DNA of 35,255 bases from contig JACQZB010000115.1 of assembly GCA_016207925.1 (NCBI GenBank), positions 1 through 35,255 of the forward strand, read 5' to 3'. Source of the stretch: Nitrospinota bacterium. Its GTDB lineage: Bacteria > Nitrospinota_A > UBA7883. The notes under the pieces are model-generated. The model had not been told where the DNA came from, did not search any database, and saw only the letters and a list, made by a program, of their open reading frames with translations. The stretch's first letter is position 1. Each line of letters opens with the position of its first letter. The position numbers and the translations under genes are program-made. This document shows positions 556-8,715 of the stretch, piece after piece.

Positions 556-756
556 ATGACCGCCGTAACTCTCGCCCATTACCGCAAACCCCGACACTCA
601 TTCCGGGCGCTATTTGTTCTGATCGGCGCGGCGCTGCTCCTCCTCACGGCTTCCACCTTCGTTAAATCCTCCCTGACCCGCGCCACCGCCTCGCCCACGC
701 GGGACAGGGAAAAACCGGAGGCGTTGGCCCTGCGGCACGGCGCCAACTTTTTCTGA
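556..756 (+). CDS. small single-span membrane protein, tentative
   Basis: A 66-residue ORF beginning 11 bases after the TPR-like gene. Residues about 16-37 (RALFVLIGAALLLLTASTFV) form a convincing hydrophobic segment after a short basic N-terminus, and the tail is rich in charged residues. The frame stays open upstream to 490, but that extension overlaps the TPR gene, so the ATG at 556 was chosen. No ribosome binding site is evident and the family is not recognised. The opposite strand is also open over much of this stretch, which lowers confidence. It could be a spurious ORF. Confidence 0.35.
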   Translation: MTAVTLAHYRKPRHSFRALFVLIGAALLLLTASTFVKSSLTRATASPTRDREKPEALALRHGANFF

Positions 757-781
757 GGTTTCCGATAAAAAATTGCCATGT

Positions 782-2362
782 CTATGAGGCTAGGCGCGCT
801 TTAAGTGCATCCCCGGCAGGTTCAAATGACCAGCCATCGGCGCCGGATTGACAACGAATCTCCGGGAGGCATTCCATCAGCAAAGCTTTGCCGACACGAG
901 GGTTGAGCTTAAGGGTATTGAGGAAGTATTTGAAATAGGGCTTAACCTCCTTCTCGCTTATCCTCATAATTGCCACATCCCTGTCTTTCCGGAGAATTTC
1001 CACGCGAGTGGTAAGTTCCCCGAATCGAATTGCGTTCTTGACGTTGTCCAATTCCCGCTGGGCGCGGCGGAGTTCCTTTTCGGAGGCCGAAAGTCTCCAA
1101 GTGGCGGAATCGTCCTCTCGCCGCTTTTCGAGAATCCAGTTAACCCGTACGGTCACTTCTGAAAGAGCATCCCTGGGTGCGATTGCACAGGATAAAAGTT
1201 CCACTATTTGCCGGTCTAGCTCACGGCGGGGAACCCGGTGATCATTGGGACAGATAGCATCCCCTTTGTGCCAGTTGTTGGAGCAGCCATATTTACCGTT
1301 TTCGCGGCCATAAACGACAACAATGTTGCCGCCACAATGGCCGCATCTTAACAGGCCGGTTAGCAGGTTGCCGGAGTAGAGCGCTTTTCCATTGGTGTAC
1401 TTTCCGCCGCAAAAGGCACGCGCTTTTTTGCGCCGTTCTTGGGCTTTCCGCCACAGATCATCCGGCACGATTTGCAGTTCAGGATGCAGGGCGAGCCGCC
1501 AATGCGACTTGTCCTTATAGAAAAGTTTCTTTGCGCCATGCGGGGATTTGCGGATCGTTGTCTTGTTCCAGTGGTACCTGCCGATGTACATTTCATTATT
1601 CAAAATGCCGCGCAAGCTGGATCGTCCGCCAAGGATCGTATTGAGCGTCCAACTTTCTCCATTCGGGGGCACAGGCGTGCCGGTATTCTTGAATTCGTGG
1701 TTCAACGTTTTTACGATCCGGGCGGCGCTTATCTTGTCGTCTGCGTACATGCGGAACACCTGAACCACTGTTTCCGCCTCATCGGGTTTAATGTTGAACT
1801 TGTAACCCTCCACTTCCGGGTTCCCATAGATATCCACCCTGCCGTTGTGCACGGGCTCCGTGCGATAGCCATACCTCCGCCCGCCGGCGCTATAACCCTT
1901 CAGAAATCGCCCTTCCATTCCGCGATGTGTTTCCTTGGCGATGACGCGGAGGAAGCGGGAGTCGGCCAACCCGTTGATCGTGATCAGATCCTCCGCGGAA
2001 TCCTGCGCGGTGTCTATCCCCTGGGCCACATAGCTTACATGGATGCCGTAATACGTAAGCAGGGCGAAAACCTCCAGCGCTTCGCGAGTGTTCCGGGCCG
2101 TTCGTGACGTGTCATCCACGAGAATACGCTGGAACGGAGCGGAGCCGCTGGTGGCGATGGCAAGCATCTGCTTGAGTCCTTCGCGGGGCGCGATAAAGGA
2201 CCCAGTAACGGCCTGATCCGTATAGATATGGTTTTCCAAAATTTCCCAACTCCGCTCCTGGGCGAAGCGTCGGCACACGCGGATCTGATCTTCGATCGAG
2301 GTGGCTCGCTGGCGTGTCGAACTGTACCGGGCATAAACGGCGCATGAGAATGATCCGCTCAT
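782..2362 (-). CDS. large serine recombinase
   Basis: A 526-residue site-specific recombinase of the large serine (resolvase/invertase) family, which cuts and rejoins DNA through a covalent phosphoserine. The catalytic N-terminal domain is present: YARYSS gives Ser14, followed by the SIEDQ helix and the VDDTSRTARN segment holding the active-site acid and arginine. A recombinase domain follows (about residues 160-290, with NEMYIGRYHWNK), then a zinc ribbon (LRCGHCGGNI, later GCSNNW and CPN), a coiled coil at about 400-460 and a short tail. Length is in the normal range for transposon or phage integrases. Its start overlaps the stop of a 57-residue ORF in an ATGA junction, so translation is probably coupled. 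Its attachment sites are not identified. The gene appears intact. Confidence 0.93.
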   Translation of the reverse strand: MSGSFSCAVYARYSSTRQRATSIEDQIRVCRRFAQERSWEILENHIYTDQAVTGSFIAPREGLKQMLAIATSGSAPFQRILVDDTSRTARNTREALEVFALLTYYGIHVSYVAQGIDTAQDSAEDLITINGLADSRFLRVIAKETHRGMEGRFLKGYSAGGRRYGYRTEPVHNGRVDIYGNPEVEGYKFNIKPDEAETVVQVFRMYADDKISAARIVKTLNHEFKNTGTPVPPNGESWTLNTILGGRSSLRGILNNEMYIGRYHWNKTTIRKSPHGAKKLFYKDKSHWRLALHPELQIVPDDLWRKAQERRKKARAFCGGKYTNGKALYSGNLLTGLLRCGHCGGNIVVVYGRENGKYGCSNNWHKGDAICPNDHRVPRRELDRQIVELLSCAIAPRDALSEVTVRVNWILEKRREDDSATWRLSASEKELRRAQRELDNVKNAIRFGELTTRVEILRKDRDVAIMRISEKEVKPYFKYFLNTLKLNPRVGKALLMECLPEIRCQSGADGWSFEPAGDALKARLAS

Positions 2363-2532
2363 TTGTTTGCACTCTGCGCGCGCAACAGGTCGTCGGCGAT
2401 AAGTTCGGCCAATAATTCAAGGGCGCGGCGCCTGCTGTCGCTGTCCAATTCGCGGACATAAGCGGTCAGCGGTTCCGTGATCAATACTCGCTTTTCCCTG
2501 CGTGGTTTGGCTTTATGTGTAAGGGATCGCAC
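2359..2532 (-). CDS. 57-residue ORF coupled to the recombinase
   Basis: A short reading frame from a GTG at 2532, ending in a TGA that overlaps the recombinase ATG by four bases (ATGA). The peptide starts with a basic stretch (THKAKPRREKR) and ends in an acidic amphipathic helix (RALELLAELIADDLL). It sits between the DnaQ-fold gene, whose stop is 13 bases upstream, and the recombinase, so all three look like one transcript. A weak CAGGA precedes the GTG. The ATGA junction and helix-forming composition are the arguments for a real gene; a small recombinase partner such as a directionality factor is conceivable, but that is speculation. It could also be only a leader that brings ribosomes to the recombinase start. 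Confidence 0.5.
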   Translation of the reverse strand: MRSLTHKAKPRREKRVLITEPLTAYVRELDSDSRRRALELLAELIADDLLRAQSANK

Positions 2533-2545
2533 GTCCTGAAACCGA

Positions 2546-3061
2546 TCAGGCGGCGGTGTGAAGGCGATTGTTGCTCTCCAGCCAGTTCCAGACCAGACGC
2601 ATCGCCTCTGCGGTGGTCAGCGTCCTGTAGGAATCGCTATCGTGTGTATGGCCAGCGTGGGCCAGCGCCTGTTCGAGCCAGCGCTGACCGGACACTTGGA
2701 AAAAGCCGCATCCGGCTTGCATACGCTCGATGAACCTTTTACGGATACAAATCAATTCGCCCGCGCCGTTCAATCCATCGGGGAAAAAATGGCGTGTAGC
2801 GTCGGCGTCGGGGACGATCACCCTGCTCCCTTTCAGAAAGCCGTGAATCTCCGGCCACAGGTCATCGAGGGTAGGCGACAGGGCGACCATGCCATTGGTT
2901 ATGCCATGCCTGGCGACTACTACGCCGGAGATGGAAGCCAGGGGATTTACCAACGTATCAAGGATGACATGGCCATCCGCGTCGAGAATCGTCAACTCTA
3001 TTATCCGGTCGAGATGCGGGTTGCGGCCCGTTGTAATGATGTTTAGGAAATAGCTGTTCAT
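2546..3061 (-). CDS. catalytically dead DnaQ-fold (DEDDh exonuclease-like) protein
   Basis: A 171-residue protein whose order of segments matches the DnaQ/ExoX 3'-5' exonuclease family: an N-terminal strand and TTG turn, LDRIIELTILDADG, LDTLVNP, then ARHGIT and PTLDDLWPEI. The catalytic positions are all changed. The DTETTG motif is NIITTG, so the Asp and Glu are Asn and Ile; the second-motif NAxFD reads DADAT, with Ala at the Asp; the H-x5-D of the third motif reads YRTLTTA, with Tyr and Thr. It should therefore lack nuclease activity and may act as a binding or regulatory protein. The start at 3061 has GGAGG five bases upstream; the ATG at 3085 has no such site. It is the first gene of the recombinase transcript. 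Confidence 0.72.
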   Translation of the reverse strand: MNSYFLNIITTGRNPHLDRIIELTILDADGHVILDTLVNPLASISGVVVARHGITNGMVALSPTLDDLWPEIHGFLKGSRVIVPDADATRHFFPDGLNGAGELICIRKRFIERMQAGCGFFQVSGQRWLEQALAHAGHTHDSDSYRTLTTAEAMRLVWNWLESNNRLHTAA

Positions 3062-3163
3062 GTGTTCCTCCAGTTTTTGAGTCATGATTGCAATAGCTCG
3101 GTTAGCAAATGTGGGTATTCATCCACCTACTTGCCTTGGTGGCCCTCGAATCGAGACTCCAAG

Positions 3164-3300
3164 AGCTTTGTGCTTAATGTTCACGTGACTATCAAATGCT
3201 CATAATGCTTATCTAGCGATCATTGTGCATGTCAAACGTGATTTTGTCAAGCATAATGTTCGTTTGGCGAGCATATTTTCTGCCGAAGAGGTATAATGGG
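3164..3300. promoter_or_regulatory. divergent promoter region with repeated operator-like sites
   Basis: This AT-rich gap separates the minus-strand recombinase operon from the plus-strand XRE gene. On the minus strand a perfect -35 TTGACA (3245-3250) lies 17 bases from CACAAT (3222-3227), and a second perfect TTGACA (3230-3235) lies 16-18 bases from AT-rich -10 candidates near 3206-3213. On the plus strand a perfect TATAAT sits at 3292-3297 with only a weak -35. Several copies of a CATAATG/CTTAATG core overlap these elements: 3171-3182, 3199-3210 and 3250-3261. The pattern is what a Cro-like repressor controlling both directions would use; the adjacent XRE protein is the obvious candidate. 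Confidence 0.55.
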
Positions 3301-3332
3301 CGAAGAAACAGCGGCATTTACATTATGGGGCT

Positions 3333-3542
3333 ATGATAAAAATCCACCTGTCCCGGCTCATGGGGGAGAGAAAAATCAAGACGGCGGAACTGGCCCGTGA
3401 GCTTGGGCTAAGCCGTGGGACGATCTCCGCCCTTTATTACGAACGGGCGCAGAAGATAGACGTGGCCGTTCTCAATAGCCTGTGCAAGTATTTCGGCTGT
3501 ACCCTGCAAGACCTCATCGAATACCGTCCGGAAAATAAATAA
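3333..3542 (+). CDS. small XRE/Cro-type DNA-binding regulator
   Basis: A 69-residue helix-turn-helix protein of the Cro/C1 (XRE, YozG-like) type. The core reads MGERKIKTAELARELGLSRGTISALYYER, with helix 2, turn and recognition helix at about residues 17-38, followed by the usual KIDVAVLNSLCKYFGCTLQDLIEY C-terminal helices. There is no other domain, so it is probably a dimeric repressor. It is divergent from the DnaQ-fold/recombinase transcript, with repeated CATAATG sites between them and one more exact copy downstream at 3692-3703. This suggests it controls its own expression and that of the recombinase operon. The start is the only reasonable ATG; GGGG lies just upstream. Confidence 0.88.
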   Translation: MIKIHLSRLMGERKIKTAELARELGLSRGTISALYYERAQKIDVAVLNSLCKYFGCTLQDLIEYRPENK

Positions 3543-3854
3543 GACCCCCTCAAGGGCGCTGGGTAGTATGAGAGCGTTTATCTGAACGCTGACGATCCTG
3601 GCCGGAGGCGAGGCCAAAATTTGGAAACGAGTATCGTTTAACAACGGTTCCCGCCCCCACTCAGGCTTTGACGACCTCGCCCAAGGAAAAGAGCATAATG
3701 TTCTACTGCGGGCTGGGCACTGGCAAAATAACTTGAACACGGTGATGCTGCCTAACCTGTTCGGACGAGAGGGAGATTCCCGCGCAACAGCTAGCCGCAT
3801 CGCTAGCCAAGCGATCACCGTGGGTTATAAAAATGCATTAATCCATTGATATAT
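3543..3854. other. intergenic stretch with one operator copy
   Basis: No convincing gene is visible. A minus-strand ORF overlaps this stretch but shows no family features and runs antisense through the XRE gene, so it is treated as a shadow. A small inverted repeat (AGCGTT at 3573-3578, AACGCT at 3585-3590) lacks a following T tract. The 12-mer AGCATAATGTTC at 3692-3703 is an exact copy of the site at 3250-3261. Confidence 0.4.
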
Positions 3855-3929
3855 TGGAGCCAGCGGTGGGGATTGAACCCACGACCTGCTGATTACGAAT
3901 CAGCTGCTCTACCACTGAGCTACGCTGGC
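3855..3929 (-). tRNA. tRNA-Thr (anticodon CGU)
   Basis: Read on the minus strand, the cloverleaf is complete: acceptor stem GCCAGCG/CGCTGGC, D arm GCTC-AGTGGTA-GAGC, anticodon stem GCTGA/TCAGC around loop TTCGTAA, short variable loop AGGTC, and T arm GTGGG-TTCAATC-CCCAC. The central loop triplet is CGT, giving a tRNA that reads ACG threonine codons. The 3' CCA is encoded in the DNA at 3855-3857 after a T discriminator. It marks the right edge of the first accessory segment, but no duplicated tRNA end was found. Confidence 0.95.
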
Positions 3930-4191
3930 TCAAAAGAGCTGATATTGTAGCATAAGGCATGAACCGGAATATCGGGATCATGCGTGGCTCAATGAAAAAT
4001 TGCAGGTTATATCATTAATCCCATCTGGCGCCACGATTTCACCTCACACAAAACATGCGCTACGTTTTCGTATCTATGAGATATGTGATTGATTTATATC
4101 GCATAACTCATTTGGGTGCTTTGGGTGTGAAGCGGGTGGGTAGCATTTTAGTCGGGCTTGGCGCTGGTTGGCGCATCAGCCGCAGTGAGTA

Positions 4192-5262: not shown

Positions 5263-6381
5263 ACGAGGAGTTCAAGACCCAACTCGAGCGCGCCCGCCAA
5301 AAGCTGGCGCGGCTCCGGGGCCATCTTTGACATCCCCGGCAAACGCAAGGAACTAGCCTCCATAGAGGAAAAGGTGGCCGCGCCCGATTTCTGGGGCGAC
5401 CCCAACGCCTCCAAGCCCATCCTCAAACGCCGGGCGCAACTCGCCCGCGCCATTGACGGCTTTGACGGGCTGAAAAAGCGGCTCGACAACGTCGAGGAAA
5501 TCGCCGCGCTGCTGGCCGAGGAGGAGGACGCCGGGCTGGAGCGTGAAACCATGGCCGAACTGGGCGCCGTCTCCGCGGAAATCGAGAAGGCGGAACTTGC
5601 CGCCATGCTCTCCGGCGAGCACGACACCGCCAACGCAATTCTTGAAATCCATCCCGGCGCTGGCGGCACGGAAAGCCAGGACTGGGCGGAGATGCTGTTG
5701 CGCATGTACCTGCGCTGGGCGGAACGGCGCGGGTTCAAGGCGCAAGTGCTGGACTACTTGCCCGGCGAGGAGGCGGGGCTAAAAAGCGCCACCGTGCTGG
5801 TCTCCGGCGAGTACGCTTACGGCTACCTTAAAGCGGAGGCGGGCGTCCACCGGCTGGTCCGCATCAGCCCGTTCGACGCCAACAAACGCCGCCATACCTC
5901 GTTCTCCTCCGTGGCCGTGACGCCGGATATCGAGGAGGATATTGAAATTGACATCCGGCCCGAGGATTTGAAGGTGGACACCTACCGATCTTCCGGCGCG
6001 GGCGGCCAGCACGTCAACGTCACCGACAGCGCGATTCGCATCACCCACCTGCCCTCCGGCATCGTGGTGGCCTGCCAGAGCGAACGCAGCCAGCATAAAA
6101 ACCGCGCCTCGGCCATGAAAATCCTCAAGGGCAAGCTGTACGCGCTCGAAGAGCAAAAACACCAGGCCAAGCTACAAGGGATCACCGGCGAGAAAAAGGA
6201 GATCAAGTGGGGTAGCCAGATCCGCAGTTACGTGCTCCAGCCCTACCAGATGGTAAAGGATCTGCGGACGCGGATCGAAGTGGGCGACGTCAACCGCGTC
6301 CTCGACGGCGACCTGGACGGATTTATTGAGGGTTACTTGTTAAAAGGCCCTTCCACCGGCCCCGTGGAGGATCTGGAGTAG
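5259..6381 (+). CDS. prfB: peptide chain release factor 2, with programmed +1 frameshift
   Basis: RF2 recognises UGA and UAA stop codons and triggers peptide release on the ribosome. The reading frame opens at ATG 5259 and meets an in-frame TGA at 5328-5330 after 23 codons. Reading then continues in the +1 frame from GAC at 5329 to the TAG at 6379-6381, giving 373 residues against about 365 in Escherichia coli. The tripeptide anticodon SPF is at about residues 203-205 and the catalytic GGQ at 248-250 (SSGAGGQHVN), both at the family's usual positions. SPF rather than PxT identifies RF2 rather than RF1. The ATG overlaps the upstream gene's stop. Annotation pipelines that ignore frameshifting will start it at 5374 and lose the N-terminal 38 residues. 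Confidence 0.96.
5316..5331 (+). promoter_or_regulatory. prfB programmed frameshift site
   Basis: The sequence CGGGGCCATCTTTGAC contains the canonical slippery CTT followed by TGA and C, as in Escherichia coli prfB, with an internal Shine-Dalgarno-like GGGG (5317-5320) four bases before the CTT. Low RF2 slows termination at the TGA and favours a +1 slip, so RF2 autoregulates its own synthesis. The mechanism is established for prfB; its use here is inferred from the conserved site. Confidence 0.93.
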
Positions 6382-8313: not shown

Positions 8314-8715
8314 TTAATGCGCCGGGCCGGGAGGCGGAGCGAAGCGCAGCGAAGTATCGCGCAGATGGTGGCGCAGGCGGGTCATTACCGGGTCGGGGAG
8401 CAGTTCATCCGATTCGTGCAGGTAGCGCAGCACGGACACGCTCCAGGCGGCCTCGTCGGGCGTTTCGATGATGGCGATGTTGCGTCCGCCGAATTCGGCG
8501 AACACCATGTCGCGCAGTTGATCCAGCGACTCGGCCTTTTCATTGCGTGTGATCTCGATGGGGCGCAGCGGGGCGACGTGGTACACCTCGAGGCCCGCCA
8601 GTTCGTCCGGGATGTCGCCGCCGGAAAGCTCCTCAATGGTCATCATGCCGGGGCCGCCCACCTGGTCCGGATCGCCCACGGCGGCCAGGTACACGGCGGC
8701 GCGCTGGATCATCAT
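8314..8715 (-). CDS. hypothetical protein, 133 residues
   Basis: A soluble alpha/beta-looking protein without signal peptide or membrane segment. It begins MMIQRAAVYLAAVGDPD and contains an extended middle (GLEVYHVAPLRPIEITR), a helix (AESLDQLRDMVFAEF) and a C-terminal helix ending in a Pro-rich tail. The frame stays open upstream to 8868, but the downstream ATG pair at 8715 is preferred because a short ORF with a good ribosome binding site ends across it. It lies 42 bases upstream of the DUF47 gene on the same strand, so it may join that transcript. I do not recognise the family. Confidence 0.6.
   Translation of the reverse strand: MMIQRAAVYLAAVGDPDQVGGPGMMTIEELSGGDIPDELAGLEVYHVAPLRPIEITRNEKAESLDQLRDMVFAEFGGRNIAIIETPDEAAWSVSVLRYLHESDELLPDPVMTRLRHHLRDTSLRFAPPPGPAH

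Follow-up and report, generated by a model that had tools for sequence, protein, structure and literature searches.

In DEDDh exonucleases, the Asp and Glu of motif I and the Asp residues of motifs II and III bind two metal ions, and the His acts as general base. Eukaryotic pseudo-nucleases are well known, and so are those that form part of polymerases. The polymerases PolA2 and PolB2 carry inactivated DnaQ-like domains (PMC12926913), and fungal RNase II pseudonucleases are reported to act as RNA-binding proteins (PMC8097288). In these cases the exonuclease fold was kept and the catalytic site lost, as in the protein described here. However, the PolA2/PolB2 cases represent polymerase domains and RNase II belongs to a different nuclease family, whereas the present protein is free-standing and element-borne. 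Inactive DnaQ-like domains are already known, and this protein would add a free-standing, element-borne variant to them.

The proteins most similar in sequence are plasmid-encoded and P2/186-like phage 3'-5' exonucleases (PF00929, phrog_192), such as WP_015282539 of Thioflavicoccus pTHIMO01, which belong to the same fold family and share approximately 30% identity over the full length as well as TTG, HGIT, C105, W128-L129 and R146. In contrast to the protein described here, they have kept the D-E-D-H-D residues, and none of those examined is located in a recombinase operon of this type. Escherichia coli Pol III epsilon (DnaQ) has the same fold but only 15% identity, and its catalytic residues are absent from the 171-aa protein, for which, unlike Pol III epsilon, no sign of a polymerase partnership was found.

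Regarding the recombinase, SCC cassette elements encode a serine recombinase together with accessory proteins for ssDNA binding and replication (PMC7581432), and XisF, the fdxN element recombinase, works with XisH/XisI (PMC4874684). Both systems feature a large serine recombinase and small accessory proteins of the element, as proposed here, and show that helpers of this sort do occur in serine-recombinase elements. The recombinase of the window (the whole analyzed stretch of 35,255 nucleotides) scored 58.1 bits against the CcrB NCBIfam equivalog model (cut-off 900) and 55.6 bits against the XisF model (cut-off 375), remaining below both cut-offs.

Fold and catalytic positions of the 171-aa protein

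Features of the locus are summarized in Table 1. Codon-position GC values of the ORF at 2546-3061 (-) amounted to 57.6/43.6/69.2 and were similar to those of the recombinase gene; an overlapping ORF on the opposite strand (2558-3046 (+), 162 codons) was without support and was rejected. The deduced protein matched the Pfam family RNase_T (PF00929) above the cut-off (E 1.8e-6, 29.1 bits, cut-off 24) and phrog_192, annotated as 'DNA polymerase exonuclease subunit' (E 3.7e-11). Plasmid exonucleases aligned with approximately 30% identity over 90-95% of the length (best E 2e-13), and phage 3'-5' exonucleases also matched at approximately 30% identity, near-full-length coverage applying to the best plasmid matches. 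Furthermore, an AlphaFold (AF2) model calculated with 50 relatives from viral contigs as input reached a mean pLDDT of 92.8. When overlaid on the Pol III epsilon exonuclease domain of E. coli (2gui), the model gave a Z-score of 19.9, with 155 residues superposed at 1.8 A, and Foldseek reported an E-value of 1.5e-8 for the same pair. The homology to DEDDh exonucleases along the whole length, which the preliminary description had proposed, is borne out by these matches, and a full-length DnaQ (RNase H-like) fold is well supported by the model.

Table 1. Features of the DnaQ-like gene, its operon and flanking region (window coordinates), and micro-ORFs of related loci.
Feature	Position	Strand	Basis and remarks
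Large serine recombinase, 526 aa	782-2362	-	Pfam; phrog_95 integrase, E 2e-69
Micro-ORF, ~57 codons, C-terminal LLAELIADDLL	2359-2532	-	GTG start assumed (a guess); TGA overlaps recombinase ATG
Gene of putative DnaQ-fold pseudo-exonuclease, 171 aa	2546-3061	-	RNase_T Pfam, phrog_192, AF2 model, Pol III epsilon overlay
Stop codon of DnaQ-like gene	2546-2548	-	
Start codon (ATG) of DnaQ-like gene	3059-3061	-	
Strong RBS GGAGG, 5 nt 5' of the ATG of the DnaQ-like gene	3067-3071	-	Sequence
Motif III codons	2612-2629	-	Tyr145 (for His) 2627-2629, Thr150 (for Asp) 2612-2614; Arg146 kept
Motif II codon	2795-2797	-	Thr89 for Asp; alignment, motif tables
Motif I codons	3035-3043	-	Asn7 (for Asp) 3041-3043, Ile9 (for Glu) 3035-3037; alignment; TTG after motif I kept
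Putative divergent control region	3201-3274		Consensus scans only
Divergent Cro/CI-type regulator (HTH_26), 69 aa	3333-3542	+	Pfam, E 8.5e-21; homologue likewise divergent at this position in L115 (Thermodesulfovibrio)
tRNA-Thr (CGT)	3855-3929	-	ARAGORN; putative island on its 3' side
Micro-ORF in L115	~5650-5765		
Micro-ORF in L123	~8470-8590		
Micro-ORF in L114	~1400-1560		
Micro-ORF in L116	1-265		

According to alignments and motif tables, all five DEDDh positions are replaced (D7N, E9I, D89T, H145Y and D150T), leaving N7, I9, T89, Y145 and T150 where DEDDh enzymes possess Asp-Glu-Asp-His-Asp. Judged by these residues, the protein is a homologue within the PF00929 family and not a DEDDh enzyme. 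The replacements Asn/Ile in motif I and Tyr/Thr in motif III had been recognized in the preliminary description, which had placed an Ala at the motif II position; this last assignment has to be corrected, as Thr89 aligns with the motif II Asp (VPDADATRHFF versus VIYNAPFDAGFL). Other motif II residues were changed as well, namely Asn at position 85 to Asp and Tyr at position 84 to Pro.

The motif table covered approximately 105 relatives of plasmid, phage, viral-contig and genome origin, in which the classical residues were kept wherever the alignment covers them, with the exception of one relative featuring Glu in place of the motif II Asp; the protein described here is the only one in the motif table departing at all five positions. 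Relatives from viral contigs were partly retrieved by means of a D-x-E pattern, and the intactness of motif I is biased in that part. Plasmid, phage and whole-genome relatives (L003-L026), obtained by tblastn or whole-genome search and involving no D-x-E pattern, were intact wherever aligned. Since metal ligands and general base are gone, the loss of all five residues should abolish cleavage, and we infer that the protein is unable to cleave, both metal sites having been lost.

The recombinase operon and its relatives

On the minus strand, the DnaQ-like gene is followed by the micro-ORF and the recombinase gene. The recombinase operon postulated in the preliminary description is a real arrangement, with all three genes on one strand and the micro-ORF and recombinase genes overlapping at ATGA. 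The recombinase comprises Resolvase, Recombinase and zinc ribbon domains in this order, all three above the Pfam cut-off; for the micro-ORF of the window, no Pfam match was obtained. Promoter-like sites were located at 3250-3222 (-) for the operon (TTGACA-17-CACAAT) and at 3229-3257 (+) for the regulator, framed by imperfect repeats at 3201-3223 and 3252-3274. These repeats are possible operators, with promoter-like and repeat matches in 3201-3274 occurring at about the background number and not above it.

In three family members, the tRNA-Thr gene neighbours a 245-aa gene, and in one of these the far side of tRNA-Thr holds a chromosomal kinase-like gene instead, a pattern consistent with an island at the present locus. 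Convincing att repeats or a tRNA duplication were not found near the element. The window begins at the contig end on the recombinase side, where a TPR-like protein is encoded at 17-544, to the left of the recombinase; its GC content is clearly lower (approximately 41%), and it probably represents island cargo too. Moreover, the genome contains a second large serine recombinase (G000:C12:3647-4909; L028, L133) with 33% identity, which is preceded by a different small ORF.

Recombinase relatives at 48-50% identity were identified in a Nitrospinales MAG (L109 and L116, carrying the same sequence), a Nitrospirae MAG (L114), a Thermodesulfovibrio MAG (L115) and another genome belonging to the same phylum as L115 (L123). 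A conserved short ORF of the AE[IL]IAxD type is located directly before, or overlaps, the recombinase start in 5/5 loci. The L115 locus shares the layout including the homologous divergent regulator, except that the place of the DnaQ-like gene (the slot) is taken by a gene for an OB+HD protein (YhaM model, E 3e-52); L123 likewise encodes an OB+HD protein in the slot (YhaM model, E 4e-56). In L114 the slot encodes a lone OB fold of 86 aa matching the start of YhaM, and the L116 contig ends before the slot. The HD domain of the L115 protein was above the cut-off (E 1.4e-12) and its OB fold slightly below (E 5e-5, 23.5/27 bits). Matches to the YhaM model were full-length in L115 and L123; with 177.5 and 190.3 bits against an NCBIfam equivalog cut-off of 460, these proteins are classed by sequence as YhaM-like only. 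YhaM/Cbf1-like OB+HD exoribonucleases thus take the same position before micro-ORF and recombinase and likewise are of the 3'-5' exonuclease type, but their fold is unrelated to that of the DnaQ-like protein.

Based on the four informative loci, the slot tends toward proteins that are of the 3'-5' exonuclease type or bind nucleic acids and are unrelated in fold, which is a lead and not a rule; the differing slot proteins could be unrelated passengers. The preliminary description had named homologues with intact DEDDh residues in this operon as a refuting finding; none was found, the relatives of the operon carrying a lone OB fold or YhaM-like OB+HD proteins. A search of the window's own genome, run without positive control, yielded no OB+HD homologue, and a literature link between YhaM and serine-recombinase elements was not found either. 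Recombinase relatives on alphaproteobacterial plasmids (approximately 30% identity) had no DnaQ-like neighbour where annotated.

Several further arrangements were observed. On a Pseudomonas aeruginosa plasmid (L018 2566-4025), a motif-intact 3'-5' exonuclease gene directly precedes genes for a Tn3-type transposase and a 'recombinase family protein'. This candidate for the same association was rejected because the exonuclease gene lies beside a Tn3-type transposase and its resolvase, and the arrangement probably reflects a transposon insertion beside the exonuclease gene. In L115, the sister recombinase operon is adjoined by a gene (702-4148) for an SNF2-type helicase with similarity to HmaA (Hachiman) and DrmD. 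Two of the Nitrospirota genomes also encode a second, more distant recombinase with 38-43% identity and no OB-HD neighbour (L122 7141-8931, L124 929-2692), which in L122 is located on one contig with the first recombinase.

Decay or retention of the gene

In order of support, the first alternative to a retained function is relaxed decay, in which the element had ceased to need its exonuclease and the gene drifts with its frame open by chance. Regarding columns conserved in at least 90% of sequences (n=24), the protein lost 5/5 catalytic residues versus 5/19 others (Fisher p=0.006) and kept the remaining 14/19, which speaks against drift; three of the five non-catalytic losses (Y84, N85, A147) adjoin catalytic residues of motifs II and III. 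At least 10 nucleotide changes are needed to account for the five catalytic codons, and the frame contains neither stop nor frameshift behind an intact RBS. In neutral simulations at the catalytic-codon load, not counting indels, a stop-free frame remained in approximately 1% of runs (approximately 4% with the lower 95% bound as load), a result that is indicative only and not a formal test because the five codons were picked for having changed. Simple neutral decay of the gene appears unlikely, and the confident, complete fold and the coding-type codon GC likewise argue against a drifting gene.

Other observations fit relaxed decay, among them the end branch of the protein, the longest in the tree (3.66 versus a median of 0.42). 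The placement of the protein inside a clade of mostly plasmid-borne intact exonucleases (support 98/100) makes descent from an active exonuclease ancestor most likely, although long branches can be misplaced, and counts in favour of the preferred reading given below. Single-protein scans of viral contigs and genome contigs, which use exact short peptides and reach close relatives only, returned no close DnaQ-like relative, and none was detected phylum-wide in 24 genomes of the own phylum and 395 of that of L115. No homologue sharing the N/I/T/Y/T replacements was found in these scans and searches or among the approximately 105 relatives, i.e., an orthologue is missing from the material covered. 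Furthermore, the OB-HD gene was apparently shortened to OB alone in L114, and therefore the slot can erode. Weighing both sides, we consider relaxed decay possible, if rather unlikely.

The preliminary description had deduced a new, non-catalytic role from the coordinated losses. The intact fold, the loss focused on the active site and the open frame with RBS despite the changes agree with this idea; homologues with the same substitutions, which could show selection for such a role, did not turn up. Neither DNA binding nor control of the recombinase, the two functions it had suggested, was directly tied to the protein by any computed result.

Possible roles within the recombinase element

The preferred reading, for and against which the chances appear balanced, is that of a dead plasmid/phage DnaQ-like exonuclease residing in a small serine-recombinase element as a non-cutting binder or scaffold. 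The protein would be made together with the recombinase and, lacking both metal sites, would not cleave. It may bind a 3' end or single strand of DNA or RNA without cutting it, or serve as a protein scaffold, and in this form would help or control recombination of the element or its replication after excision. The gene has its place in a layout of regulator, accessory gene, micro-ORF and recombinase. Binding is considered because the slot in relatives holds YhaM-like OB+HD proteins, one of them with the OB (binding) part only; by analogy, this suggests, but does not prove, that the gene was kept for binding and not for cutting.

Alternatively, the protein could be passenger or defence-type cargo acting independently of the recombinase, e.g., by inhibiting exonucleases of host or phage or serving as a decoy for them. 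The kind of protein in the slot varies, the protein was matched by DEDDh models of a defence library (E 6e-10, as for any DnaQ relative), and the L115 operon lies beside the HmaA/DrmD-like helicase, which is of defence type; however, location on the same strand, tight spacing and the divergent regulator indicate co-expression with the recombinase, and independent cargo appears improbable. An active enzyme with a metal site rebuilt from Asp85, Asp87, Asp140, Asp142 or Glu22 is very improbable: Asp85, in place of the motif II Asn, could in principle form an altered site with Asp87, acidic residues occur near motif III, and an active-site switch in a DnaQ-like fold was reported for Maelstrom (PMC2628886), but motif I retains neither of its metal ligands, the five classical residues have all been replaced, and the alternative residue set occurs in no relative of the motif table (approximately 105).

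The reading as a non-cutting binder can be extended, quite doubtfully, to a whole family of serine-recombinase elements in which interchangeable 3'-end-binding proteins (YhaM-like OB+HD, lone OB, dead DnaQ) and the conserved micro-protein would serve as accessory factors or control directionality, and in which recognition of 3' ends, and not cleavage, would count. If the preferred reading is true, the protein is a bacterial DnaQ homologue that stands alone on a mobile element, has lost its active site entirely and offers an instructive example of a nuclease fold put to new use in binding. The occupation of the slot by YhaM-like or OB-only proteins in other loci, together with the micro-ORF conserved before the recombinase, provides a testable hint that little-studied serine-recombinase elements need nucleic-acid-binding helpers.
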